Source of the DNA: a virus
IMG/VR virus record: IMGVR_UViG_3300009433_001838
Location: 1-21,748 of that record
Reading direction: 5' to 3' (one strand)
Length of the DNA: 21,748 bases
The notes under the pieces: model-generated
The model's database searches: none
Told to the model about the DNA's origin: nothing
Seen by the model: the letters and a program-made list of their open reading frames with translations, nothing else
Translations under genes and position numbers: made by a program
Part shown: piece by piece, positions 5,507 through 20,652 of the stretch
Layout of the letters: the number at the start of each line of letters is the position of its first letter
Numbering within the stretch: the first letter of the stretch is position 1

Positions 5507-5614
5507 TCACCATACTCCCGGAATGATTTGTCCTGTGACTGCATAACTACCCATTGCGGCAATGACTCCGATCATTGCTGCCCAACCATTAATCCGTTCT
5601 GCGTTTTCGTTCAT
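5507..5614 (-). CDS. hli: Minimal high-light-inducible protein (35 residues)
   Basis: The encoded peptide reads as almost nothing but one chlorophyll-binding helix: AERINGWAAMIGVIAAMGSY. This fits the Hli/ELIP pattern A-E-x-x-N-G-x-x-A-M-x-G, with Glu6, Asn9 and Gly10 in place. The arginine often found after NG is Trp here. It ends TGQIIPGVW. Hli proteins bind chlorophyll and carotenoid in thylakoid membranes and protect photosystems; phage copies are thought to keep photosynthesis going during infection. An AGGAG Shine-Dalgarno sequence lies eight bases before the ATG. The start overlaps the previous small gene by 26 bases and the stop touches the next ATG. Confidence 0.85.
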   Translation of the reverse strand: MNENAERINGWAAMIGVIAAMGSYAVTGQIIPGVW

Positions 5615-6009: not shown

Positions 6010-6095
6010 CAGTAGGTTTCTGAAAGTTGTTCCACAGTATAACCGAGCAGACAGAAAAAAGCAACTGTCGTGACGGTGAAAATAACTTCAGTCAT
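6009..6095 (-). CDS. 28-residue single-helix microprotein
   Basis: Between two clear genes a short frame runs from an ATG at 6095 to a TGA at 6009-6011. It encodes one hydrophobic helix (VIFTVTTVAFFCLLGYTV) and a short polar end (EQLSETY). At both ends it overlaps its neighbours by one base in the form TGATG: with the 72-residue Hli gene upstream and the 75-residue membrane protein downstream. This precise double coupling is the main support. It resembles one-helix photosystem-type peptides in size only; no family match. Confidence 0.6.
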   Translation of the reverse strand: MTEVIFTVTTVAFFCLLGYTVEQLSETY

Positions 6096-6313
6096 CAGAA
6101 TCCGAAGACACCAAAGAAAAATACACTACCGGAAGTAGCATAAGAGATAACAGCAGCAACAAATCCAAGCATAGCAGTGCGTCCATTCAATTTCTCCGCC
6201 CTTTCGGCATATGACTCATATCCATAACGCTCAGCATCGGTCTGAGAGACATACATCTGGGGTTCTTTAGCGAACAGATTCTGTTGTCCGCGATCGTTCG
6301 TTGTTACAGTCAT
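6095..6313 (-). CDS. hli: High-light-inducible protein (72 residues)
   Basis: The N-terminal half is polar; the C-terminal half is the Hli chlorophyll-binding helix, AERAEKLNGRTAMLGFVAAV followed by ISYATSGSVFFFGVFGF. Glu, Asn-Gly-Arg and Ala-Met-x-Gly-Phe are all conserved. The protein would insert in the thylakoid membrane, bind chlorophyll and dissipate excess energy. A GGAG site precedes the ATG by about five bases, and a perfect sigma70 promoter lies 28 bases upstream, so this is the first gene of the small hli operon. Its TGA overlaps the next ATG. Confidence 0.95.
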   Translation of the reverse strand: MTVTTNDRGQQNLFAKEPQMYVSQTDAERYGYESYAERAEKLNGRTAMLGFVAAVISYATSGSVFFFGVFGF

Positions 6314-7116: not shown

Positions 7117-7150
7117 TATTTATACTACTCGAAGTTTCGTAGTATGTCAA
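7117..7150 (-). promoter_or_regulatory. Composite promoter: T4-type late box plus -35 and dyad
   Basis: Minus strand: an exact TATAAATA (7117-7124), the late-promoter box of T4-like phages, is preceded by TTGACA (7145-7150) whose TGA is the stop codon of the last glycan gene. Between them lies an inverted repeat (7123-7144), TACTA-CGAA / TTCG-AG-TAGTA with a two-base loop. A sigma70 reading (TTGACA, 17 bases, TAGTAT) is also possible but weaker. The dyad could act as an operator or as a weak end to the glycan operon. It drives the secreted beta-barrel gene. Confidence 0.65.
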
Positions 7151-7980
7151 GTGGGTGGGGTTTCACTACCTTGTTGTTGTGAGTGATGGGTAACCCTACC
7201 CAAATATGGGTCATAGTTCATCCAGTCTCCAATATTAACACTGGCACCTTGTTGTTGCCAATAGTTTGTGAGAGCAGCATGAGGACCCTGATGAAAGACC
7301 CCAATATGTTCTTGATGAATCGTAGAACCGAATTCCAGATTATACAAGAACAATGGAATGGTATAAGTCTTTCCAGTTTCCAAAATTACATCTTCGGAAA
7401 CTGCTCTGGGAACGACTCCGTTATCCAGTTTGTATTTGTCACCACGGATGTGATGCTTGATTATTTTAGCAGCATGGTGGCGAGAAATCAAGTAGGCAGC
7501 AGCAGAAAAATCATTGATAAATTTCAGATGCAGTTTAACGTGAATGTCTCCCGTTGTGATCGTGGTCATCTGAACACAGTCCCAGTCATAGGGAAGGTAT
7601 CCAATAAACTCACGCCAAGTGAAATTCCAATACTTCACTGTGAAGAAGTCTACATCATCTTCAAGAATCATGCAATACTCATCATCAGTCTCCTCATAGA
7701 AGTGCTTAATTGCCTTGAGATGCGACATACAACATCCCAACTCAGCAGGACTGACGTTATCAGGAACCTTACCCTTCAGATGCTCAGAAGGATCATCCTC
7801 CCTAGCATCGTATCCAGCAATTCTAGTATGGGTTTTAATATCCCAATACTTAAACTGCTCCTCCATGAAGAATCTCCGATTCTCATCGGCATCTAGATTC
7901 AACCAATAGATTGCGGGGAGTCCTTCTAGTTTATGGGTGGACTTATTCTTGTCCATCTTACTAAATTCGTGTCCATCCAT
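7147..7980 (-). CDS. Glycosyltransferase family 25-like protein
   Basis: The 277-residue protein carries the marks of the GT25 (LPS beta-galactosyltransferase type) fold. The N-terminal strand is LPAIYWLNLDADENRR (about residue 21-36), then ELGCCMSHLKAIK and the acidic metal-binding motif CMILEDDVDF, then a SAAAYLISRHHAAKI segment. It would transfer a sugar from a nucleotide donor to a glycan in the cytoplasm; no membrane span is seen. The C-terminus has a Gln/His-rich tail. The start may be the ATG at 7980 (overlapping the previous gene by 20 bases) or one at 7956, after the previous stop. It is the last gene of the 15-gene glycan operon. Confidence 0.85.
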   Translation of the reverse strand: MDGHEFSKMDKNKSTHKLEGLPAIYWLNLDADENRRFFMEEQFKYWDIKTHTRIAGYDAREDDPSEHLKGKVPDNVSPAELGCCMSHLKAIKHFYEETDDEYCMILEDDVDFFTVKYWNFTWREFIGYLPYDWDCVQMTTITTGDIHVKLHLKFINDFSAAAYLISRHHAAKIIKHHIRGDKYKLDNGVVPRAVSEDVILETGKTYTIPLFLYNLEFGSTIHQEHIGVFHQGPHAALTNYWQQQGASVNIGDWMNYDPYLGRVTHHSQQQGSETPPT

Positions 7981-8761
7981 CGGGCGTTACGTCTTTTGTA
8001 TCGTGAATTTTTGTATAACCCTCAGCACCAAACCACTGACGGGGAGCAATTACTTTCTTATCTACATTAGCAGAGAGCCATGCCCCCCACCAAGAGAAAG
8101 TAGAATTAGCAATGATGAAATCCTCACAAAGAGACATCAAACACAGGTCAAGACGATTGTCTTCGTTCTCAGAAATCATAAAATTATTTCCTGAGAAGAG
8201 TTCTTGCTCACTACACCATGCAGGATCATCAGAGAAAACAATCACATTACGATATACCTCAAAGTTCGACAATGCTTTCTTGTAATAATCAAGAGTACAT
8301 GGAGGATGATTAGCAGAGTTAGTCACATAATCAGTGCGGCGAACGTGCAATGCAATGGGATTCTCTACATCCTCCATCATTTCCTTACAAGGATTCAAAA
8401 TCGCATCCTTAAAGGTAAAGTCTTGACGAATCTCATCTTCAATGTGCTTGAAGTATTTTTCTGTCTGGAAGTATCCCTGCAAAACTACATCATCAGGACA
8501 CTGGTCAAACAACTCCTTGTCAAAGTGAAAGTGTCTTTCAGCAAGAGTAGGTGCCTCATATATTCCAGTCCTAACTTTCAGATCGAAAGAGTCAAATAAC
8601 TCTGTCCGAAGCATGTTTCCAATACCATCATCCATAAAGTTAGTATGATATGAAATCATATAATCATATCCATGATGCCTAGCAATGCCCTTTAGAGAGG
8701 CATACTGGAACATCTGATTGGCAAGTCTGCCCATTCGTCCAAGATTATTAAATCCAATCAT
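7961..8761 (-). CDS. GT11 alpha-1,2-fucosyltransferase-like protein, copy 1
   Basis: The 266-residue protein has the full set of GT11 motifs: GRLANQMFQYASLKG (about 11-25), HVRRTDYV (GDP-sugar-binding HxRRxD), FSDDPAWCSEQ, and DFIIANSTFSWWGAWL. It should transfer L-fucose (or a related GDP-L-sugar such as colitose or L-galactose) to a galactose-like acceptor. It has a second, diverged copy at 13990-14847. The start overlaps the upstream gene by four bases (ATGA). No membrane segment, so it acts on a cytosolic acceptor. Confidence 0.92.
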   Translation of the reverse strand: MIGFNNLGRMGRLANQMFQYASLKGIARHHGYDYMISYHTNFMDDGIGNMLRTELFDSFDLKVRTGIYEAPTLAERHFHFDKELFDQCPDDVVLQGYFQTEKYFKHIEDEIRQDFTFKDAILNPCKEMMEDVENPIALHVRRTDYVTNSANHPPCTLDYYKKALSNFEVYRNVIVFSDDPAWCSEQELFSGNNFMISENEDNRLDLCLMSLCEDFIIANSTFSWWGAWLSANVDKKVIAPRQWFGAEGYTKIHDTKDVTPDGWTRI

Positions 8762-9579
8762 TCGACTTTTGCTTTCTGAGTTTTAAGGTACTCCTGTGCA
8801 TCATAATAGTCGGAAAGTTCTTGAGTGTCAAACTTAAGAATCATCTCATACAGGTTTTTATTGTTTTCAATATATGGGTTGGTAAACCAGGAGTTAGGAG
8901 TTCTCTCATGCTCCATATGATAGACGTTTCCATCATATCTACCAACATTATATCCAAGGAGTTTGAATCGATGATACCTTTCATTATCTTCATACCCGTA
9001 GGCAATGAAGTTCTCATTCTCTAGACCACCTTGAATATATTTTTTAGTAGAATAGAACTGACAGAATCCATACTTAGCATCATATACTTTAGATTGCTCT
9101 AAAAGAATACTCAGATCGTAATCGTTGTTAATGAACCTAGAGACTAAATCATCGTCAGTGAAGATCTGATATTGCCAATTACCATCACCATAAGGATAGA
9201 CCATATCATAGGTGCCATCCAAGATCATCTCTTCACATTTTTGGTAGGATTCAAGGGGGAGAAGAATGTCACAGTCATAATTAACGACAACAGGAGTCTT
9301 TGTCATCATCACCATATCATTGAGAAGTCTAGTTCTATGGAAGAACTGATCATTGTTCTTCTCAAAGACATGAATCAATCGCTTACACTTCTCTTCACCT
9401 ACACACTCTTTAATTTGAGATAGTGCAGATGCCTCAAAAGCAGACTCCGAGTCTGACTCTTTGATAATAAGAGTGCAGTCAGTATTATCAAGAAGATATA
9501 TCGAACTGACCACCACGTTTCGCAATCGATCAAAAGATTCGATTCGTAGTGGCACGATAAAGGTAGTATTACTCAGCAT
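8758..9579 (-). CDS. GT-A glycosyltransferase (GT2/GT7-like)
   Basis: In this 273-residue protein the N-terminus (TTFIVPLRIESFDRLRNV) starts a GT-A nucleotide-binding fold. NYDCDILLP supplies the D-x-D metal site. The C-terminal block FIAYGYEDNERYHRFKLLGY followed by VYHMEHER resembles the galactosyltransferase/GalNAc-transferase C-terminal domain (Glyco_transf_7C), in which the E-D pair contributes the catalytic base. The substrate is not predictable. It overlaps the upstream GT2 gene by 11 bases and the downstream GT11 gene by four, so the three are co-translated. Confidence 0.85.
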   Translation of the reverse strand: MLSNTTFIVPLRIESFDRLRNVVVSSIYLLDNTDCTLIIKESDSESAFEASALSQIKECVGEEKCKRLIHVFEKNNDQFFHRTRLLNDMVMMTKTPVVVNYDCDILLPLESYQKCEEMILDGTYDMVYPYGDGNWQYQIFTDDDLVSRFINNDYDLSILLEQSKVYDAKYGFCQFYSTKKYIQGGLENENFIAYGYEDNERYHRFKLLGYNVGRYDGNVYHMEHERTPNSWFTNPYIENNKNLYEMILKFDTQELSDYYDAQEYLKTQKAKVE

Positions 9580-10306
9580 AGTCTCTTGTCTCCTTGTGCT
9601 TTTCAGTTACGTATTCTAACTCCTTAGCGTTTGCTTGCCAAGACCCATCAGGGTGTTCGCAGATAATATCTAGTTCCAAATTAGATGAAACTCTATAATC
9701 CCCTTCTCTACTACAAACACAGATGTCATCAATAATATCAGGCATACCATGAAAATATCTCATCCTATGATAGAACTCTGTGTCCATCAACATCTTACAT
9801 TCAGGGTCAAAGTATTCTAGGCACTCTCTTCTCAATGCAACAATAGAAGGTCCACCCATAAAGTTCTGTCCCTCTAAAAGATGTTCAGACCAACGTGGAA
9901 CCATGGGACGATAGAAGTTTTGTCCATCAGACGTATGAGAGAATCCTGTCACTATCCATGAGCATTCACTCTCAGTGAATCGATTACGAATCTTTTCCAA
10001 CGCAGCATCGTCAGTGAACAAATCATCCTGGAACATAATTTTAATCAGGTCACCAGAGCAATACTTTAGTGCGTTGTTAGTGTTAGCAGGACCGTTCCCT
10101 CTATCATAAAAGTTTCTAATGTATGTTACAGGAAAAGTACTGGAATACTTATCGCATACATTAAGAATGTCATTGTTTTGTGATTGATCAGAAACAACAA
10201 CCTCTACATCTCTATATGTCTGGTTACTAATAGTATCAAACATCTCGGTAAGAAACTTTGCACCAAGACCACTCATACCATAAGCAGGGATAGCAATAGA
10301 AATCAT
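9569..10306 (-). CDS. Glycosyltransferase family 2
   Basis: The 245-residue protein is a typical inverting GT2 enzyme. It has MISIAIPAYG at the start, NQTYRDVEVVVSDQSQN, GNGPANTNNALKYCSGDLIK, and the metal-binding MFQDDLF around residue 93-99. Later DTEFYHRM resembles the D-x-x-F acceptor-site region. It is cytosolic and shows no membrane helices, unlike lipid-linked GT2 enzymes. The donor and acceptor are unknown. It overlaps its upstream neighbour by four bases (ATGA). Confidence 0.9.
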   Translation of the reverse strand: MISIAIPAYGMSGLGAKFLTEMFDTISNQTYRDVEVVVSDQSQNNDILNVCDKYSSTFPVTYIRNFYDRGNGPANTNNALKYCSGDLIKIMFQDDLFTDDAALEKIRNRFTESECSWIVTGFSHTSDGQNFYRPMVPRWSEHLLEGQNFMGGPSIVALRRECLEYFDPECKMLMDTEFYHRMRYFHGMPDIIDDICVCSREGDYRVSSNLELDIICEHPDGSWQANAKELEYVTEKHKETRDYAE

Positions 10307-11175
10307 CTTAATGCTGTCCCAACTCTCTTTGCCATCCTTAGGAAAGTACTCTGTTTACCCGTGTCAAAGGGGTTAGATAATGATAAAAGAATAAAGTCTA
10401 CCACTGCTTCCTTGACATGTTCTGCACCTCTCTCAACATTGAATACAGAGTGCCTACCATCATCATCGGTGTATGGATGATGCCATTCTCCTTCAGGAAT
10501 ATACTTCTCAGTTTTATGGACCTTCTGATAAGAGAATGCGTTAGGTAACTCATTAAACCTTGCTTCAGTATCAGGGTCATCAGAACATACAAAGAACTTC
10601 TTATCACCTGTTTTTGCAACTGTCTGAATCCAGTGGTCAACATCAAACGATTCGATGTTTACAAAATCAGTCATACGAAGATGAATACCATAGTAACCCT
10701 GCCGCAATTCATTTTCATCCAAGAACTTACCAACAGTGGCAAGAACATCGTCACTAAATTTAAGGTCTCTAATAGTCTTCTTGATTTCCTCCTCAGGAAT
10801 CCAATCATATAGCAAAGGAGTGTAATAGAAGATTGGGTTATCCGAAGAGTTTACAAAGTTTCGGAATGACTCAACATTCATATTACTTGGTTCCATCCTA
10901 CCAGGACTTCTAAAGAACTGTAGATAGGATGCGTCACATGAGAGAAGACTATATTGTTCTCCAATAGGATAATATTCTCTAATGTTTGTATCAGTTGCCT
11001 CAAGATCATTTTCTCTGGAGAAAAGTTCATAGAACCTTGCTCTACACATATTTGTGCTAGGCCAACTTACCGTGACTGGTAGATTACACAGTCTCGCTAG
11101 TGTAATGCCACCAATCAAACCACTATATCTGTTACCAAAACTGCCATCGCAGCATACATGAAAATGTTTCATCAC
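10303..11175 (-). CDS. Fucosyltransferase-like GT-B protein (NodZ/GT23-like fold)
   Basis: The 290-residue protein begins HFHVCCDGSFGNRYSGLIGG, a loop resembling the GDP-binding entry of fucosyltransferases. It then shows GYYGIHLRMTDFVN (a H-x-R-x-x-D variant of the GDP-fucose site) and KKFFVCSDDPDTEARF, the usual later strand. Overall order matches GT11, GT23 and NodZ-type enzymes, but it is distinct from the two GT11 copies, so the exact family is uncertain. It would use a GDP-L-sugar donor made by the same operon. It overlaps the end of the interrupted methyltransferase by four bases. Confidence 0.75.
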   Translation of the reverse strand: MMKHFHVCCDGSFGNRYSGLIGGITLARLCNLPVTVSWPSTNMCRARFYELFSRENDLEATDTNIREYYPIGEQYSLLSCDASYLQFFRSPGRMEPSNMNVESFRNFVNSSDNPIFYYTPLLYDWIPEEEIKKTIRDLKFSDDVLATVGKFLDENELRQGYYGIHLRMTDFVNIESFDVDHWIQTVAKTGDKKFFVCSDDPDTEARFNELPNAFSYQKVHKTEKYIPEGEWHHPYTDDDGRHSVFNVERGAEHVKEAVVDFILLSLSNPFDTGKQSTFLRMAKRVGTALR

Positions 11176-11966
11176 TCACTCAGGTCATCAATGTAAAATG
11201 CTTCTGTCTCTTTTTGGAAGTAACCAAGGACTCTATTTCTGTCTTCAAAAATGTCAGACCAGTCATCAATATTCTCTTTATAGTTCTTCTTTTTCTTGAT
11301 ATGAACTGTAGTCAGTCCCCAGGATTCAGGACGATGAAGTACAGAAATGTAATCATCTTCATAAGTAAATCCTTCGTTACCATGCTTATCAAACAGTTCA
11401 GTGATTCCAAAGAAGCGACCTACTGCAACCTCAGGACGATCCCACTGAATACCGTTCTCCTTAACTTCAGGAACCCAGGTAAGGTCATGCATTCCTGCTG
11501 GCCAGTTAGTATCATGGAAGACAATATATCCATCCTCCTCCATATGATCCCACCAATTATAGAGTTCTGATGCAACCTGAGCAGCAACGTGAATAGAATC
11601 TACAAATAGAAGTTTTACAGTACCATACTCTTCAGTATCCCATGCCTTACCGACACTAGAACTATCACCCTGAATTATTTTATAAGTTGGATATTCGCCA
11701 AGGTCAAATCCAAGACGCCTGAACTAAGTATCAACTCCATAGACAGTGTTGTTTCTCTCTACAGAATCATAAGTCATGGTAAGAGAAGACACGCCATAGT
11801 CAACCCCAAGGTCAACAAAGACATTATTCTCTCCACACTTGTCTACTACTCTTGCAAGTTGATAGAGGTTTGTTCCAAGGTTACTAAAAACAAAATTCTC
11901 TTCCGTTGAGAAGTTCCATCCACCATAGTTACCGGCACGAATGCCTTTTCCAATCGTTACTGTCAT
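11172..11966 (-). pseudogene. SAM-dependent methyltransferase interrupted by an in-frame TAG
   Basis: One continuous frame from the ATG at 11966 (two bases after the previous stop) would encode 264 residues but has a TAG at codon 81 (11724-11726). Before it are NVFVDLGVDYGVSSLTM (SAM-binding motif I region) and VYGVDT (end of the second strand). After it, in the same frame, follow FRRLGFDLGEYPTYK, IIQGDSS, VKLLFVDSIH and HMEEDGYIVFHDTNWP, as expected for a class I methyltransferase of the Methyltransf_24 kind. No frameshift is needed. A Trp codon (TGG to TAG) at this site would fit, as Trp often follows this strand. It may be a recent nonsense mutation, a sequencing error or readthrough. A sugar O-methyltransferase is the likely original role. 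Confidence 0.8.
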
Positions 11967-11967
11967 G

Positions 11968-13302
11968 TCAGAATCCAATTTTTTCGTTTTCACAGAAGGG
12001 GTAATTATTTTTAGTCAGATAATTATAAAGAACTGATTTATATTTGGAGTTTTTTAACTCAGGAGTAAGCGAAAGAAACTCTTGTACGACATATTTATCC
12101 AGGTATGGATATCTGGTCTCAAGACCAAAAGACCCTGCGACGTGTTCTTCCTTTGCGATGTATGTTTCTTGTGAACTACCATAAAAAGATGCCCAAGGAA
12201 AAATAGTTGAAAGGTCATCAGGAAATAGTCCACCAAAGTTACTGTGAGAATACTTTTTAGTCCCACCGAAACCGTAGTCTGAAAACAATTCATCTGCTCC
12301 AGAACCAGAGAGATAGATTTTTCTTTCATCTTTTTTTGCCAAAGTGCAGACAGCAACTAAACTTCCTGCTCCATGGTCATCCTTAATGTTCATATGATAT
12401 TCATTATAGTCACTGGAACTAGAATGAACAGTATTCTTAAATGGTTCTACTTTATCAATCAGATACTTGGTAAGTAACTGGCGACCAGGACCATACTCAT
12501 CGATAGTAAACTTTTCATACTGAGATTCGCCACTGATAAGGTCATGTCTACCAGTAAGCACAGGCATATTCTCAGTGCCAGTGATACTGTATGCTTTATA
12601 TGGGATGTCTTGCCGTCTCAATTCACATGCAATAGAACCACTATCGTATCCACTAGAGAGTCCGATAAAGATTTTCTCTCGAATACCCTTAGTCCTCTTA
12701 CGAATGGACTCCGCAAACGCAGTATTCCAATCATCAAAGGTAGTCTTATTCTGAGTCAAATCAAACTTAAACACTGGACCTTGGTCCAAAACCTTCAGAG
12801 TGTCCATGTCAAGGAGCATCCTGGTGTTTGCAGGTATCTTCTTGATATCAGTAAACCCAAGGGCAAGCAGGGCAGACTCAAAGGTCGCTACACCAATCTT
12901 ACCTCCATTGATAGCATACCAAATCGGTTTAGTGGCGAAGACATCTGACGATAAAACAATACGTTCGTTCGCATAATCCACAAGGCAAATTGCAAACTCA
13001 CCATCCAACATATTTGGAAAGTGAAATCCATGCTGCAGATACTTTGGAATAATACATTCACCATCGGAGTTGTAGTGCTCCATGGCGTTGTAAATCTCTC
13101 CATTGTATACACATGCAATTTGCCTCTCCTCATTGAGGAAAGGTTGTGGAGTGAACTCACCACTAATACTAAGAAGATTATGGACAAATGTATATTCACC
13201 AACTTCTACAACGTTAGTACTGTCTGGTCCACGATCTTCCATGTATCGGTTTACATAGTCAAGATCTTCTATTTCTTTATTCGTAAAAAGAAAACTACAC
13301 AT
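11968..13302 (-). CDS. asnB: Asparagine-synthase-like glutamine amidotransferase
   Basis: The 444-residue protein has both halves of glutamine-hydrolysing asparagine synthases. The N-terminal nucleophile is Cys2 (MCSFLF), with RGPDS (24-28), VYNGEIYN (65-72) and DGEFA (100-104). The ATP pyrophosphatase domain has LSSGYDSGS (215-223) and LSGSGADELFSDYG. It is shorter than typical AsnB (about 550-620 residues). Within a sugar operon such proteins may amidate a uronic acid or similar carboxylate rather than make asparagine; this is inference. Supplying asparagine to the infected cell is the alternative. The start overlaps the previous gene by eight bases. Confidence 0.85.
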   Translation of the reverse strand: MCSFLFTNKEIEDLDYVNRYMEDRGPDSTNVVEVGEYTFVHNLLSISGEFTPQPFLNEERQIACVYNGEIYNAMEHYNSDGECIIPKYLQHGFHFPNMLDGEFAICLVDYANERIVLSSDVFATKPIWYAINGGKIGVATFESALLALGFTDIKKIPANTRMLLDMDTLKVLDQGPVFKFDLTQNKTTFDDWNTAFAESIRKRTKGIREKIFIGLSSGYDSGSIACELRRQDIPYKAYSITGTENMPVLTGRHDLISGESQYEKFTIDEYGPGRQLLTKYLIDKVEPFKNTVHSSSSDYNEYHMNIKDDHGAGSLVAVCTLAKKDERKIYLSGSGADELFSDYGFGGTKKYSHSNFGGLFPDDLSTIFPWASFYGSSQETYIAKEEHVAGSFGLETRYPYLDKYVVQEFLSLTPELKNSKYKSVLYNYLTKNNYPFCENEKIGF

Positions 13303-13993
13303 TAGATAGAAAGTTATGAACTCTACGATGATTTGAATTAATTACTTGAGGAAGAATTTCATTTTGCATAATACCATTTGCTCTACCAGGCATAATGGTG
13401 GGTTTGATGTTATGCATATCCATAGCAAAAGGAAGACTCAATTGATCTCTAGAAGAATACTTACAAATAATCTCCCACCATGTTAGCATAAGTTCTTGAA
13501 TTTCCAAACTGTTTCTCTGAATTCTACAAGGCAACTCATACAAACCATTTTCTTCAGGATAACTACGTGACTGATAAAAATTCACCTGTGATTGAACGTG
13601 GTATCCTTTATCAAATTTTATTCCTTGAATGATATTTGCTTCAGCATACACACAGTTCCTTTCTGGGTGTTTGAATAAAGCGATATCACTATCTTTCAGA
13701 TATTTTTCTACAATCTCTTTCGGATCCATCATGACTGCGTGAGTAGAATCAATCCAGATGTAGTAATCATATCCAGGTACAAAAAGATGAGGTAAGACCT
13801 TATAAATCTTGGCATTCCTTCTGTTTGCATACTCTCTATCAATAGAGAATTTCCTCAATGTCATTGGAGTCCATATAGAATCCCCAATTAACTCTTCCTC
13901 TACAAAAGCAAAGTAGTCTGCAGAATCATATTTTACATTAACCTCTGCTGGGAGAGTAGCACCAACAGAAGCAGTTAAGACAGCAATTTTCAT
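13295..13993 (-). CDS. DUF616-type (TOD1/MUCI70-like) glycosyltransferase-like protein
   Basis: This 232-residue protein starts MKIAVLTASVG and has NRRNAKIYKVLPHLF, then PGYDYYIWIDSTHAV (the D-x-T/S position of a GT-A metal site). KHPERNCVYAEA follows. This order (YDYYIWID, KHPxRxCxYxEA) is characteristic of DUF616, whose plant members act in cell-wall glycan synthesis. A late H/R-rich stretch ends the protein. Cytosolic, no membrane segments. Coupled by four-base overlap to the upstream GT11 gene. Confidence 0.75.
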   Translation of the reverse strand: MKIAVLTASVGATLPAEVNVKYDSADYFAFVEEELIGDSIWTPMTLRKFSIDREYANRRNAKIYKVLPHLFVPGYDYYIWIDSTHAVMMDPKEIVEKYLKDSDIALFKHPERNCVYAEANIIQGIKFDKGYHVQSQVNFYQSRSYPEENGLYELPCRIQRNSLEIQELMLTWWEIICKYSSRDQLSLPFAMDMHNIKPTIMPGRANGIMQNEILPQVINSNHRRVHNFLSNV

Positions 13994-14847
13994 AACTCAA
14001 TCCAGTTTTTGTTTTCAGGGACAATATCAGAGGTGTCATGGTCATATGCTTTACCAAACCACATCTTAGGAGAAATTAGTTTACGTGTTCTATCTTTCTG
14101 AAGATAACCACCCCACCATGATAGCGAACTGTTGGCAGTGATACCACCATCACACAGAGACATGAGGCACAAGTCCACAAAGGGAACCAGAGCACCATCT
14201 TCATGCGTATCAGTTGACTCTGACATGTTAAACCTATCAGCAGAGAAGAACTCCTGCTCTTTACACCAATCAATAGAATCAGAGAAAACAATCACAGGAG
14301 TATCTTCTGGGAAGTGCTCAAGTGCCTTCTGATAATACTCAATAGGTTGGAGGGGGTGATGATCTTGAAGATTAGTGTATGCCCATTTGAATCCTCTCTT
14401 ATCTGCTAAGTTAGGGTCACCCCTACGAACATGCAACATTATAGGACGAGTATCAAATCCACTCATCATTTCTTCACAAGGTTTTACAATTTCATCATGA
14501 AACTGCAAGTCATTCCGAATGACATCTTCAATCTCAACAAAATACTTATCTGTCTGATAGCAACCAAGCAGGTTCACATTGTCAGGACAGTTGTCATACA
14601 GGTTCTCATCAAAATGAAAATGTGCCTCCTGAACCCCTTGCTGGGTATTCAGAAAAGCAATGTTCTCTTCTTTGATTCCATCCAACTTAAAGCATTCATG
14701 AACACCGTAGTTATCAATACTGTCGTATGGGGGAGGAAATACAAAGTCAAATCCTTTATGTGCTGCAATGCCACGGAGAGAGGCATACTGAAACAATTGA
14801 TTGCCTAAGCGGCCACTGTTACCAAGTCCGTTAAATCCAATAGTCAT
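13990..14847 (-). CDS. GT11 alpha-1,2-fucosyltransferase-like protein, copy 2
   Basis: The 285-residue protein has GRLGNQLFQYASLRG (about 12-26), HVRRGDP, PVIVFSDSIDWCKEQ and GGITANSSLSWWGGYL, the diagnostic GT11 set. It is clearly related to the copy at 7961-8761 (shared beginning IGFN-LG, shared DLCLMSLC) but diverged, with an extra segment after HVRRGDP. The two may use different donors (GDP-L-fucose, GDP-colitose or GDP-L-galactose) or acceptors. Four-base ATGA overlaps on both sides. Confidence 0.92.
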   Translation of the reverse strand: MTIGFNGLGNSGRLGNQLFQYASLRGIAAHKGFDFVFPPPYDSIDNYGVHECFKLDGIKEENIAFLNTQQGVQEAHFHFDENLYDNCPDNVNLLGCYQTDKYFVEIEDVIRNDLQFHDEIVKPCEEMMSGFDTRPIMLHVRRGDPNLADKRGFKWAYTNLQDHHPLQPIEYYQKALEHFPEDTPVIVFSDSIDWCKEQEFFSADRFNMSESTDTHEDGALVPFVDLCLMSLCDGGITANSSLSWWGGYLQKDRTRKLISPKMWFGKAYDHDTSDIVPENKNWIEL

Positions 14848-15695
14848 TTGTAATTCTTTTTCATTTCATTATACACCTTTCTAATACCAACATCAATGGT
14901 AGTTTTGGGAACCCACCAATTTAAAATATAATTGTCTGCTTCATTTCTCTTATCCATCTGAACACTATCTTTTGCTAGACCAGGTTTAATCTCAACATCA
15001 TAATTACCATCAACAGCAAAGCATCCTTTAATAATAGAGGCAACTTCTTTAATTGTCTCTGATCTAAATGCTGTAATGTGAAGAGGATCCTCTGGTTTGA
15101 AGTCAGTATAGTTTTCCATAACCGTCTCCAATGCTTCACAGCAATCCTCAGCATAGAGAAACTGACGTTCTTCAGTGCCATCGGTCAACATCTCAAATTG
15201 ACCCTCTTCAAACCCTCTACGGATAAAGTCAGTGATGACATGTGCTTTCTCCATGTCCTTTTCAATTCCATAGACATTCCAGAACTTAACAGTCAGTCCT
15301 TTGAGTGCAGTAGTATGCAGTTCACCGACACGTTTCATCACACCATAAGGAGAGTAAGACATGTTACTCATTTGAGATGAGGCAAAGACAAATCTCTTCT
15401 TAAATTTTCCAAGTAAGCGAAACGTATTTGCCATCATGCGAGTGTTGTTATTCACAAACTCAAATGTATGCTGATACTTCTTCAGGTAACGTGAACCACC
15501 CACATCAAAAGCAAGAAAGAATACAAAATCAGCGTACTGAATTGCATTCTCTACTACAGTGTTGGGTGTCACTCTCAAATCATATTGAGCACCATTTACA
15601 ATATCAACATTAGTTACATGATGTCCTTTATCTTTTAAGTAATCAGATAGATAAGCACCGATCTGTCCAGCAGATCCTAAGATTGTAATATTCAT
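14844..15695 (-). CDS. Extended SDR sugar-nucleotide epimerase/dehydratase
   Basis: The 283-residue protein has the Rossmann start MNITILGSAGQIGAYL (G-x-x-G-x-x-G), a Ser in FVFASSQMSNM, and the catalytic Y-x-x-x-K as YGVMK. Near the C-terminal part, RQFLYAEDCCEAL is the usual extended-SDR substrate-domain motif. It therefore acts on a nucleotide sugar with NAD(P), but which reaction is unclear. Because it follows the GDP-mannose 3,5-epimerase it may work on the same branch. It is not a Gmd or Fcl copy. Overlaps both neighbours by four bases. Confidence 0.88.
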   Translation of the reverse strand: MNITILGSAGQIGAYLSDYLKDKGHHVTNVDIVNGAQYDLRVTPNTVVENAIQYADFVFFLAFDVGGSRYLKKYQHTFEFVNNNTRMMANTFRLLGKFKKRFVFASSQMSNMSYSPYGVMKRVGELHTTALKGLTVKFWNVYGIEKDMEKAHVITDFIRRGFEEGQFEMLTDGTEERQFLYAEDCCEALETVMENYTDFKPEDPLHITAFRSETIKEVASIIKGCFAVDGNYDVEIKPGLAKDSVQMDKRNEADNYILNWWVPKTTIDVGIRKVYNEMKKNYK

Positions 15696-16747
15696 TCTTC
15701 AGAATTAGCAGCAATTTGATCAGAAATCCAAGCATAAGTTCTAGCAATACCTTCCTCCAGAGTCATACTATAGTCCCATTGCAGTGCTTCACGAATCAAT
15801 TCGTTATTAGAGTTGCGTCCACGCACACCCAGAGGACCATCAATATGAATCTTCCTTACATCCTTACCAGCAACCTTTCCAACAGTGTCTACTAGTTGAT
15901 TGATAGTCACCATCTCTTCAGAACCAATGTTTACAGGTCCAAGGAAGTCAGATTCCATCAGGCGACGAGTTGCTTCGATACACTCATCAATGTAGAGGAA
16001 TGAACGAGTCTGTTCACCATCGCCCCAGACCTCAATAGCACCACCGTCTTCAGGTAGATATGCTACTTTACGACACATTGCAGCAGGAGACTTCTCCTTA
16101 CCACCATCCCAGGTGCTATCAGGTCCATAGATGTTATGGAAGCGAGCAATACGAACGGGGATACCATGGTTGCGATTGAACGTTAGATATAGACGTTCAG
16201 AGAACAGTTTCTCCCAACCATATTCAGAGTCAGGACCAGCAGGATAAGCATCACTTTCCTTGAGTCCAGGGTTGTCCACATCCATCTGAGCATACTCAGG
16301 ATACATGCAGGCAGAGGAGGAATAGAAAATCTTAGTTCTGTTCTGTTCAACCTGCTTATTCAACTCCAGTTGACACTTGAGCATGTTAAGGTTGATAGCA
16401 GCAGAGTTATACATCACCTCAGAGTCATTGTCTCCAGAGAAGATATAACCAGCACCACCCATATCAGCAGCATACTGATAGATTTCATCAAAAGGTTCTA
16501 CAAACTTCTCTGCCACATTTGCATAGAAGTTACCCTGATATCCAGAGAACCTGATGACACGACCCATCAGACTGATGTCCGTAAGATCTCCAAGGATGAA
16601 CTCATCAGCAAGAGTAGGAGAATATTCTGGACGCTTGATATCTACACCACGTACCCAGTATCCCTCACTCTTGAGACGGCGAACCATATGACTACCAATA
16701 AATCCACCAGCACCACAAACAAGTGCAGTCTTTTGTCGTTCAGACAT
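15692..16747 (-). CDS. gme: GDP-mannose 3,5-epimerase-like enzyme
   Basis: This should convert GDP-D-mannose to GDP-L-galactose (and GDP-L-gulose). The ATG at 16747 has GGAGG five bases upstream and gives 351 residues. Diagnostic features are VCGAGGFIGSHMVRRL, WVRGVDIKRPEY, AADMGGAGYIF, SSSACMYPE with Cys147, LKESDAYPA, and YGWEK with Tyr176 and Lys180. FHNIYGP, GGKEKSPAAMCRK (the second catalytic Lys) and WGDGEQTRSFLYIDEC complete the set. Spacing matches plant GME (Cys145, Tyr174, Lys178), so this is a specific call rather than a general epimerase. It has GDP-mannose as substrate in common with Gmd, forming a branch point. Confidence 0.92.
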   Translation of the reverse strand: MSERQKTALVCGAGGFIGSHMVRRLKSEGYWVRGVDIKRPEYSPTLADEFILGDLTDISLMGRVIRFSGYQGNFYANVAEKFVEPFDEIYQYAADMGGAGYIFSGDNDSEVMYNSAAINLNMLKCQLELNKQVEQNRTKIFYSSSACMYPEYAQMDVDNPGLKESDAYPAGPDSEYGWEKLFSERLYLTFNRNHGIPVRIARFHNIYGPDSTWDGGKEKSPAAMCRKVAYLPEDGGAIEVWGDGEQTRSFLYIDECIEATRRLMESDFLGPVNIGSEEMVTINQLVDTVGKVAGKDVRKIHIDGPLGVRGRNSNNELIREALQWDYSMTLEEGIARTYAWISDQIAANSEE

Positions 16748-16748
16748 T

Positions 16749-17507
16749 CTATCCTCCAATAAATTCAGAAATTTCGTGTTTTACTCTAGCATGAAAGTCC
16801 CAGTATTCTTTGGACTTTCCGTAGTTTTCTTCTACTACATCTACACGATCATCATAAAACTTCTCATCAAGATTGTCAAGAATATCCTTGAGTTCTTCGA
16901 TAGTATTAAAAATAATCATGCCATCGGTATTGAAATAATCACCGATGTTCGATGCACCCCAATAGATTGGGATAGTTTTAGAAGCAAGGCAATCGATCAA
17001 CTTTTCAGTAATCCAGTTATCTCGCTGCTCGTTCTCTACAACTATGTGATATTTAGCAGTTTCAAAGAGAAAGTTCTTGTTCGGTGTTCGCGGTGGCGAC
17101 TTGTGCTTGACAATACTAAAACCATTCAGGTCCTCTGCCTCTTGTAACCCCTCCCAAATTTGCAGACGGAGTTTATGTCCAGGGGCCCATCCCTTATTAC
17201 TGGTGTTAAAGGAACAAATCTTCTGTTTGTTTGGTTTGAACTCATCCCATTCAATCCAACAGCAACCAAAGATAAACTTTTGAGCATTAGGAAGGTCTAG
17301 AAGGTCTTCCCTCCAGGTAAGAATTAAATCAAACTGTTCTGCGTTTGCTCTTACATTATTGGCAATGTCAAGAATAGAAGGTGGTTCACATAAAACCAAT
17401 ACATTTATACAGTCTGCTTTCCATGCGAGTGCATCATAGGAAATATGAACCTTCTTCTCAAACTGACCATCTGTGGACAGTGTTCCACTACACTCAATAT
17501 CATACAT
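16749..17507 (-). CDS. GT10-like fucosyltransferase
   Basis: The 252-residue protein has the C-terminal GT10 (alpha-1,3/1,4-fucosyltransferase) signature: YHIVVENEQRDNWITEKLID followed by CLASKTIPIYWGASNIGDYF. This corresponds to the F-x-x-x-x-EN---D-x-x-TEK---VP-x-x-G donor site. The N-terminal half (FDLILTWREDLLDLP, KFIFGCCWIEW) is as in short bacterial members. Expected donor is GDP-L-fucose or a related GDP-L-sugar from this operon. No membrane anchor. Overlaps the ColD-like gene by eight bases; its stop is two bases before the GME start. Confidence 0.87.
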   Translation of the reverse strand: MYDIECSGTLSTDGQFEKKVHISYDALAWKADCINVLVLCEPPSILDIANNVRANAEQFDLILTWREDLLDLPNAQKFIFGCCWIEWDEFKPNKQKICSFNTSNKGWAPGHKLRLQIWEGLQEAEDLNGFSIVKHKSPPRTPNKNFLFETAKYHIVVENEQRDNWITEKLIDCLASKTIPIYWGASNIGDYFNTDGMIIFNTIEELKDILDNLDEKFYDDRVDVVEENYGKSKEYWDFHARVKHEISEFIGG

Positions 17508-18675
17508 TTGGAATTACCTCGTTCAAAATTTCAAGAAGTCTATTTACTTTTCTGTCAGTTACGAATTGACTATTACCCACGTACAATCCATTCTTATGTA
17601 GGATCTCTACGTTGGGTTCCTCTCGCTGAGTGCAGAGTTCATACTTCCTAAATGCAGGATGGCGAAGAAGATTGCCACTGATAATAGGACGAAACTCAAT
17701 TTCATTAAGCATCAAAGTTCCCTTTACCTTTGCAACACACTTCTCATCAAAAGGAATAATTGGTAGAGAAAAACTACTATTACCCGGTTGATACTGAGGT
17801 GTTCTGAGTCCCTTATGAAACAAAACACCGTTATAATACTGACGGTAATTTTGTTTACGGATTTCGATATTCTTATTAAGTTTTTTTAGTTGAGAAAGTC
17901 CTAGAACAGCACAGATTTCATGGTTACGGAAGTTATATCCATCCGTCATGAACAAGAATGCAGGATCAATATCAGGGTTTTCTGTTACATATTTGTCACG
18001 ATTAAAGTCAGATTCCCTTGCCATGCCATGGGATCTCTTCATTCGCATCAAATCATAAAGGTCTGGATTGTTAGTGCAGACCATTCCACCTTCAACAGTA
18101 GTGATATGATGTCCAAAATAAAAACTAAAAGTTGATCCAGCAGATAGAGTTCCTCTCTTGTTTAGATTAGAATCTTGAACACCATGAGACTCACAAACGT
18201 CTTCAAGAATCAATGCGTTAGGAAAAATATCCTCAATCTTCTCCACATCAGAGGACAATCCAATCAAGTGTGTGACAAAAACTACCTTAATATCAGGATG
18301 TTGAGTGGCAACATACTTCAATTCTTCGATATCAAAGGAGAAATTGTTCAGATTAATGTCACAAAAGATAGGTTGTAATCCATTTTGAATGACTGGACCA
18401 ACATTAGTGACCCAAGTCGTAGCAGGAACTAGAACTTTGTCTCCGTCTTTAAGACCACAGAGTTCTTTGATAGATGCAATCAAAAGAGAGTTGGCAGTGC
18501 TACCACTAGAAACATAAAGAGAGTAATCAACACCCAACCACTCTGCCCACTTCTTTTCAAATTGACGAACCTTAGGTCCATTTGTCAATCTCGAACTAGT
18601 GAGAAGAAATGCTGCCATTTTGAGACGATCTTTGAAGGTAATCGTCTCTTCCATCAGAGGCCAAGATTCAATCAT
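17500..18675 (-). CDS. colD: ColD-like GDP-4-keto-6-deoxymannose 3-dehydratase (PLP)
   Basis: The 391-residue protein belongs to the DegT/DnrJ/EryC1/StrS PLP family. It shows SSGSTANSLLIASI, EDVCESHG (Asp159 for the PLP ring nitrogen) and SFYFGHHITTVEGGMV. In ordinary sugar aminotransferases the last motif has a PLP-binding Lys; here His189 stands in that place. His at that point is the mark of the 3-dehydratases ColD and the Fe-S enzyme E1 (RfbH). Length (E. coli ColD is about 388 residues) and the presence of Gmd and Fcl/ColC genes favour ColD. It would remove the 3-hydroxyl from GDP-4-keto-6-deoxymannose, leading to colitose. Four-base overlap with the upstream gene. Confidence 0.85.
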   Translation of the reverse strand: MIESWPLMEETITFKDRLKMAAFLLTSSRLTNGPKVRQFEKKWAEWLGVDYSLYVSSGSTANSLLIASIKELCGLKDGDKVLVPATTWVTNVGPVIQNGLQPIFCDINLNNFSFDIEELKYVATQHPDIKVVFVTHLIGLSSDVEKIEDIFPNALILEDVCESHGVQDSNLNKRGTLSAGSTFSFYFGHHITTVEGGMVCTNNPDLYDLMRMKRSHGMARESDFNRDKYVTENPDIDPAFLFMTDGYNFRNHEICAVLGLSQLKKLNKNIEIRKQNYRQYYNGVLFHKGLRTPQYQPGNSSFSLPIIPFDEKCVAKVKGTLMLNEIEFRPIISGNLLRHPAFRKYELCTQREEPNVEILHKNGLYVGNSQFVTDRKVNRLLEILNEVIPNV

Positions 18676-19595
18676 GTGTTTTTCTTCTCCAACTTGTAGT
18701 ATTCATAAGTATTTTTCAATCCCTTTTCCAGGGAAGTTTTAGGTTTCCAACCAAGATTTTCTAGTTTTGACACATCAAGAAGTTTTTTCATCATACCATC
18801 TGGTTTATCAGTGTCCCACTTTATTTCCCCTTTAAACTCAACCACATCTTTAATGATGTCTGCAAGTTCTTTAATAGAATAATCAACGCCACTTCCTACA
18901 TTGATTATATCGCCATCATTGTAGTTAAGCATCAGAAATACACAGGCATCCGCAAGATCTTCAACGTAGATAAATTCCCTTCTAGCGACTCCAGTCCCCC
19001 AACAGGTAACACTATCATCAGATGTAGAGAACTTAGATATCAAAGATCCAATAACATGTCCTGTACTGGAGTTGAACTTATCCTTCGGACCATAAACATT
19101 ACAAGGTTGAGCAGTGATAAAGTTACAATTATATTGCTTCCGATATGCTTGGCACAGTTTAATACCAGCAATTTTAGCGATGGAGTACGCTTCATTAGTA
19201 GGTTCAAGATGTCCTGATAATAGATACTCTTCCCTCATAGGCTGAGGACATTCCTTAGGGTAGATGCATGATGAACCCAGGAACAAGAGTTTCTTTACCT
19301 TATATTTGTGCGAACACTTGATAATATTGCTCTGAATAGAAAGGTTATCAAGTAAAAAGTCAACAGGATGAGCAGCATTATCCCCAATACCACCACATTT
19401 AGCTGCTGCTAAGAGCACGTAATCAGGTCTTTCCAACTTAAAGAAAGTAGAAACCTGATCATAATCAGATAAATCCAACTCCTTTCTCGTCTTTAGAACT
19501 AGATTTCTATACCCAAGTTCACCTAATCGTCTTACGATTGCAGATCCAACCATCCCAGTGTGACCTGCAACGTAAATCTTGTCACTCATATGCAT
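18672..19595 (-). CDS. fcl: GDP-L-fucose synthase or GDP-L-colitose synthase (Fcl/ColC)
   Basis: Starting at the ATG at 19595, which has GGAGG 11 bases upstream, the protein has 307 residues. It shows [29 protein letters not shown] with Ser108 and Cys110, [11 protein letters not shown] with Tyr137 and Lys141, and STGHVIG with a His. These match the catalytic set of E. coli GDP-fucose synthase (Ser107, Cys109, Tyr136, Lys140, His179). The enzyme epimerises at C3/C5 and reduces C4 of GDP-4-keto-6-deoxymannose (to GDP-fucose). If the ColD-like enzyme acts first, the product is GDP-colitose. ColC is an Fcl homologue, so motifs cannot separate them. An ATG at 19589 is the other possible start. Confidence 0.9.
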
Positions 19596-20652
19596 AACGA
19601 CTGAATCCTCCCGATGTAAGAAGTTCATCTCTTTTAGCAAACTCGATGTCCTTATTTACCATCTCTCCAATCATCTCATCCAGAGTAATTTCTGGTTTCC
19701 AACCAAGAGTCTCTCTTGCTTTGGTTGAATCACCAAGCAAAGTCTCAACTTCAGCATCCCTAAAGTACCTAGGACTAACACTAATTACCACATTACCAGT
19801 GTTTTTATCGATTCCAATCTCATTTACACCCTCACCTTGCCACTGAATATCCATTCCAAGGCACTTACCAGTGCGCTCACAGAACTCTCTAACAGTGATT
19901 TGTTCCATAGTAGAGATCACAAAGTCATCTGGTACATCATGTTGCATCATCATCCACATAGCACGGACGTAATCCTTAGCATGACCCCAGTCACGCTTAG
20001 CATCTAGGTTACCCAGTCTCAAAGTCTTCAGAAGACCAAGACTGACCCGTGCAAGGTCCCGTGTAATCTTCCTAGTGACAAAAGTTTCACCTCTACGGGG
20101 TGATTCGTGGTTGAAAAGGATACCAGAACACGCAAACATACCGTATGACTCACGATAGTTCTTAGTAATCCAGTGAGCATATAGTTTTGCTACCCCATAT
20201 GGAGACCGTGGATAGAAGGGAGTAGTCTCTTTCTGAGGATTTTCTTGCACCAAACCAAACATTTCTGAGGTAGATGCCTGGTAGAACCTAGTCGTTTTCT
20301 CCAAACCAAGGATACGAATTGCCTCAAGGATACGAAGAGTTCCAATCGCATCACTGTTAGCAGTGTACTCAGGTGTTTCAAAAGAAACCTTCACATGACT
20401 CTGAGCACCTAGGTTATAGATCTCATCAGGTCGAATCATCTGAATCAAACGAATCAAATTCGTAGAATCAGTCAAATCACCATAGTGCATATAGAAGTTT
20501 TTACTTCCATTAAAGACATGATTCACTCTATCAGTATTAAATGAAGAACTTCTTCGTTTAATACCATGCACTTCATATCCTTTTTCCAAGAGTAACTCAG
20601 CAAGATAAGAACCATCTTGCCCCGTTAGTCCCGTAATCAGTGCTCTTTTCAT
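19582..20652 (-). CDS. gmd: GDP-mannose 4,6-dehydratase
   Basis: The 356-residue protein makes GDP-4-keto-6-deoxy-D-mannose from GDP-mannose, the first step towards fucose, colitose and related sugars. It has the NADP-binding [10 protein letters not shown] (8-17), [15 protein letters not shown], catalytic Thr128 and Glu130 in QASTSEMFG, and Tyr152 and Lys156 in YGVAK. All are four residues below E. coli Gmd numbering. [13 protein letters not shown] and [15 protein letters not shown] are also present. Full length and intact. It leads the 15-gene glycan operon, behind a terminator-linked promoter. It overlaps the downstream gene by 14 bases. Confidence 0.97.

Follow-up and report, generated by a model that had tools for sequence, protein, structure and literature searches.

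An in-frame TAG codon in the glycan-cluster methyltransferase gene of a cyanophage contig: nonsense mutation or consensus error

The virus record IMGVR_UViG_3300009433_001838 was analysed over its whole length of 21,748 bases (hereafter the window) and was found to possess a methyltransferase gene interrupted by an in-frame TAG codon. The favoured explanation, given a little better than even confidence from sequence comparison, is a recent, isolated and private C-to-T nonsense mutation which would have created a null allele in one cyanophage lineage. The observed basis for this reading is the stop itself, a single-base difference, the intact gene of the relatives and purifying selection. A sequencing or assembly (consensus) error in this one metagenome contig, the virus itself having a Gln codon and an intact methyltransferase, is the lesser but still substantial possibility; both are ordinary events and neither is firmly separated from the other. 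The stop is an ordinary gene-killing mutation or a sequencing error, and no new coding trick.

The window is assigned to a T4-like cyanophage on the basis of flanking genes with counterparts in hundreds of Synechococcus and Prochlorococcus phages and the presence of high-light-inducible-protein genes (Table 1), and the record is most likely part of a larger genome. The first of the two high-light-inducible proteins is only 35 amino acids long and covers the C-terminal half of its family. The methyltransferase lies within a fucose/glycan cluster of a kind known from cyanophages, in which it is the sole broken gene. This cluster combines GDP-fucose synthesis genes with several fucosyltransferase-like genes (GT10, two GT11 and O-FucT-like), which suggests that a fucosylated glycan is synthesised or modified by the phage.

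Table 1. Positions in the window of the interrupted gene, its neighbours and other features discussed.
Feature	Position	Strand	Remark
Class I SAM-dependent methyltransferase gene (Methyltransf_24), interrupted	11172..11966	-	264 codons
In-frame TAG, methyltransferase codon 81	11724..11726 (11726-11724)	-	Private to this record
Predicted truncated product	11724..11966	-	80 aa; from sequence
First ATG/GTG/TTG restart	11172..11543	-	180 nt past the stop; would yield 123 aa
Upstream neighbour, glutamine amidotransferase/asparagine-synthase-like (AsnB-like)	11968..13302	-	
Downstream neighbour, O-fucosyltransferase-like (O-FucT-like)	10303..11172	-	Below Pfam cut-off
Two high-light-inducible protein genes	5507-5614 and 6095-6313		
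Cyanophage glycan cluster	7147..20652	-	
Cluster genes (1)			GMD, GDP-fucose synthase-like, DegT aminotransferase, GT10, two epimerases, two GT11
Cluster genes (2)			TOD1-like, AsnB-like, methyltransferase, O-FucT-like, GT2, GT7C, GT25

The likely start of the methyltransferase gene is the ATG at 11966-11964 and it ends with the TGA at 11174-11172. Methyltransferase sequence is found on both sides of the TAG in one frame, with no frameshift. The product read through the stop covers the whole Pfam Methyltransf_24 domain (51.2 bits, E 2.5e-13, against a curated cut-off of 26.3), while the C-terminal piece alone covers just its second half; no hit for the methyltransferase was obtained in NCBIfam, nor in a sequence profile search of the PDB. 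An AlphaFold model of an intact relative shows a Rossmann-like fold (mean pLDDT 72 and pTM 0.79 for the best of five models), for which TrmR and small-molecule O-methyltransferases were the fold neighbours in the PDB (E about 1e-7). In this model codon 81 maps just after strand beta-2, inside the SAM-binding fold. The 80-residue product keeps motif I (DLGVDYG) and, following beta-2, the acidic residue (VYGVDT), and nothing beyond.

According to the favoured explanation, a single C-to-T change would have converted CAG (Gln) to TAG, and translation would halt after 80 of 264 residues. As these 80 residues would be without beta-strands 3-7 of the Rossmann-like fold, no active enzyme is expected from the interrupted gene, judging by the model, and the allele is expected to be null. 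A phage with the TAG would presumably lose one methylation of its glycan product, both the loss of activity and the glycan target being predictions. The gene is tightly packed between its neighbours: the stop of the AsnB-like gene precedes the methyltransferase ATG by 1 nt, and the O-FucT-like ATG and the methyltransferase TGA have one base in common. From this arrangement, translation of the O-FucT-like gene may be coupled to that of the interrupted gene, and because of the one-base overlap a polar effect is plausible, by which the O-FucT-like gene would perhaps be translated less well.

Sixteen related IMG/VR contigs were found to encode the same protein (71–100% identity), uninterrupted in every one. 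The initial annotation had described an in-frame amber codon in an otherwise intact methyltransferase without frameshift, and these relatives, together with the sequence and the full-domain match, bear that description out. The alignment with homologues that it had called for placed a glutamine at the codon-81 position in all 16, encoded by CAG in the ten closest and by one of the Gln codons in the remaining six. The TAG and its flanks are thus no chance juxtaposition. Wherever a relative's sequence extended far enough to either side, the methyltransferase was flanked by the AsnB-like and O-FucT-like genes. No second record bearing a TAG at this site was identified among the other viral contigs searched, a set from which near-identical records may have been missing.

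The same relatives dispose of a split gene, in which two separate natural proteins would meet at the TAG. Each half does form an open reading frame; however, the halves are fused in 16/16 relatives, so that the prospect of homologues existing as two separate proteins, raised earlier as a possible refutation, proved false and this reading is contradicted. Furthermore, the stop falls inside the SAM-binding fold, the 180 nt that follow it contain no in-frame ATG, GTG or TTG, and the product of the first restart would lack the SAM-binding half. A split gene can hardly be credited.

Beyond these contigs the protein is rare. Among 50,697 GenBank phage records only one relative was detected, at 32% identity in a Kyanoviridae record, and yet 16 IMG/VR contigs encode the methyltransferase; at the DNA level the gene region matched nothing in GenBank phages. 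In the relative from marine virus AG-345-L05 (32% identity) an Asn is aligned with codon 81, from which it appears that Gln is not strictly required there. In this single-cell Pacific virus (L057, 4449-5255) the distant methyltransferase lies close to a protein which on visual inspection looks similar to the window's GT25 protein (7147-7980), and this suggests that the glycan cluster is partly conserved in AG-345-L05. A search for cellular relatives in bacterial and archaeal genomes gave pattern hits, none of which was confirmed. Literature searches on cyanophage LPS genes and on nonsense variation in metagenomic viruses found nothing directly relevant.

The age and nature of the change can be judged from the closest contig, G010 (IMGVR_UViG_3300025892_001961), a sister contig of 44.9 kb which aligns to the whole window with no gaps and 38 mismatches. 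Its methyltransferase gene is identical to that of the window, letter for letter, save for one C-to-T at the first position of CAG (Gln), giving TAG. The initial annotation had proposed a single TGG to TAG change; a single substitution it is, but the ancestral codon was CAG or CAA (Gln), as in the relatives, and not TGG. The stop is considered recent, since apart from it the gene matches that of G010 and shows no further decay. Between positions 542 and 21748 of the window (21.2 kb) only four differences from G010 were found, all of them transitions (99.98% identity), comprising three synonymous changes and the stop. The window's bases at 12382 and 20101 also occur in other populations, which indicates that much of the difference between the two contigs is true variation, while those at 11726 and 18328 are private when compared with all relatives checked. 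The remaining 34 of the 38 mismatches sit in positions 1-541, and this abrupt divergence marks either a recombination boundary or the end of a mixed-strain contig.

These observations bear on a consensus error in both directions. The change is confined to a single record, position 11726 is one of only two window-private changes (the other being 18328), and the divergence at 1-541 hints at a mixed-strain assembly. On the other hand, the consensus appears generally good, as the differences from G010 other than the stop are all synonymous, two of the three being common to other populations; there is no homopolymer or frameshift at the site, and the remaining genes of the glycan cluster are unbroken.

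The methyltransferase gene, judged by its sequences, is under strong purifying selection (dN/dS of 0.02–0.04 among relatives, in comparisons with the window or G010) and is always intact elsewhere, which also supports an error. No internal stops were found in 164 gene-by-contig comparisons (23 genes, 13 contigs). A random substitution in these genes would give a stop in 4.6% of cases, and a transition in 2.2%. One stop among four changes is therefore unlucky, although not remarkable for a feature that was chosen for looking odd. Against the null allele, the TAG is present in one sequence only, a null would not be expected to become the consensus in so strongly selected a gene, and the assembly may mix strains, given the divergence from G010 at 1-541. 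Strong purifying selection thus favours an error, whereas a real change is favoured by the largely clean comparison with G010 and by the lack of an error-prone context. Recent loss and sequence error, both listed in the initial annotation, are what remains of the options offered there.

Functional readthrough would require low-level decoding of UAG, by a near-cognate tRNA or a host amber suppressor, yielding a little full-length enzyme. Glutamine-inserting amber suppressors are known and would restore exactly the residue lost, and the frame is intact downstream of the TAG. However, the search for a CTA-anticodon tRNA was negative in the window (an incomplete genome), in the 44.9-kb G010 and in a 194-kb relative, which goes part of the way towards the suppressor check suggested earlier. 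The folding of the RNA at and after the stop is not more stable than that of shuffled sequence (z +1.0), so that a stimulating 3' structure is absent, and the stop is conserved in none of the 16 relatives. The readthrough option put forward earlier gained no positive support and is very unlikely.

Phase-like variation, in which a glycan modification would be switched on and off by reversible mutation at codon 81, has in its favour that such systems usually end in just this way, a surface-glycan enzyme being lost through one change. However, the site shows no repeat tract, the TAG was found in no other contig searched, and point substitution is not known as a mechanism of phase switching. The phase-like part of the earlier proposal of recent loss was therefore not sustained, and such switching is regarded as highly improbable. 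A further suggestion, distinctly unlikely, is that part of the population maintains the TAG as a true allele, since the loss of this glycan methylation, or its presence in mere traces, would help against some hosts, or that a glutamine-inserting suppressor of the host decodes it and makes the modification host-dependent.

Reassignment of TAG to Gln across the genome (genetic code 15) occurs in some crAss-like phages (PMC9523058), and the TAG of the window does stand exactly at a conserved Gln. However, TAG terminates 6 of the 24 genes of the window, several of which end with TAA or TGA at or near the same place in relatives, and the TAG at codon 81 is the only one in frame in the genes checked. 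The earlier view that global recoding is unlikely was upheld: code 15 is contradicted by TAG serving as a terminator and by the single in-frame TAG, and next to no weight is given to it. In some crAss-like gut phages this code is proven, and it was assigned by increased coding density (PMC9523058), so that one in-frame TAG is no reason to invoke it here. Together, the TAG terminators, the negative search for a CTA-anticodon tRNA in these sequences, and the lack of readthrough structure and of a nearby restart disfavour recoding, a split gene and programmed readthrough.

If the nonsense mutation is real, a phage would have lost one step of glycan modification with the rest of the cluster in the window still intact, giving a small hint at variation in what phage glycan clusters make. 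Otherwise it serves as a caution that relatives and reads should be consulted before a coding trick is proposed for a lone nonsense codon in one environmental contig.

With respect to known systems, the protein resembles Pfam Methyltransf_24 (PF13578) in its full-domain match over the cut-off and its predicted Rossmann-like fold, although it shares only 10–17% identity with the solved structures listed (TrmR and the O-methyltransferases). The cluster is similar to the LPS/nucleotide-sugar cluster of Synechococcus phage ACG-2014f, another T4-like cyanophage with GMD, epimerases and an aminotransferase, but differs from such cyanophage clusters in its many fucosyltransferase-like genes and in a methyltransferase that is nearly absent from GenBank phages. 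With code-15 phages (PMC9523058) the window has in common a TAG at a conserved Gln position, and it departs from them in having one in-frame TAG, TAG as a normal terminator and no CTA tRNA found. The allele differs from the classical T4 amber mutants in being known from an environmental contig consensus, with no suppressor host known, and is like them in that a T4-like phage gene, otherwise intact, carries a single substitution to UAG.
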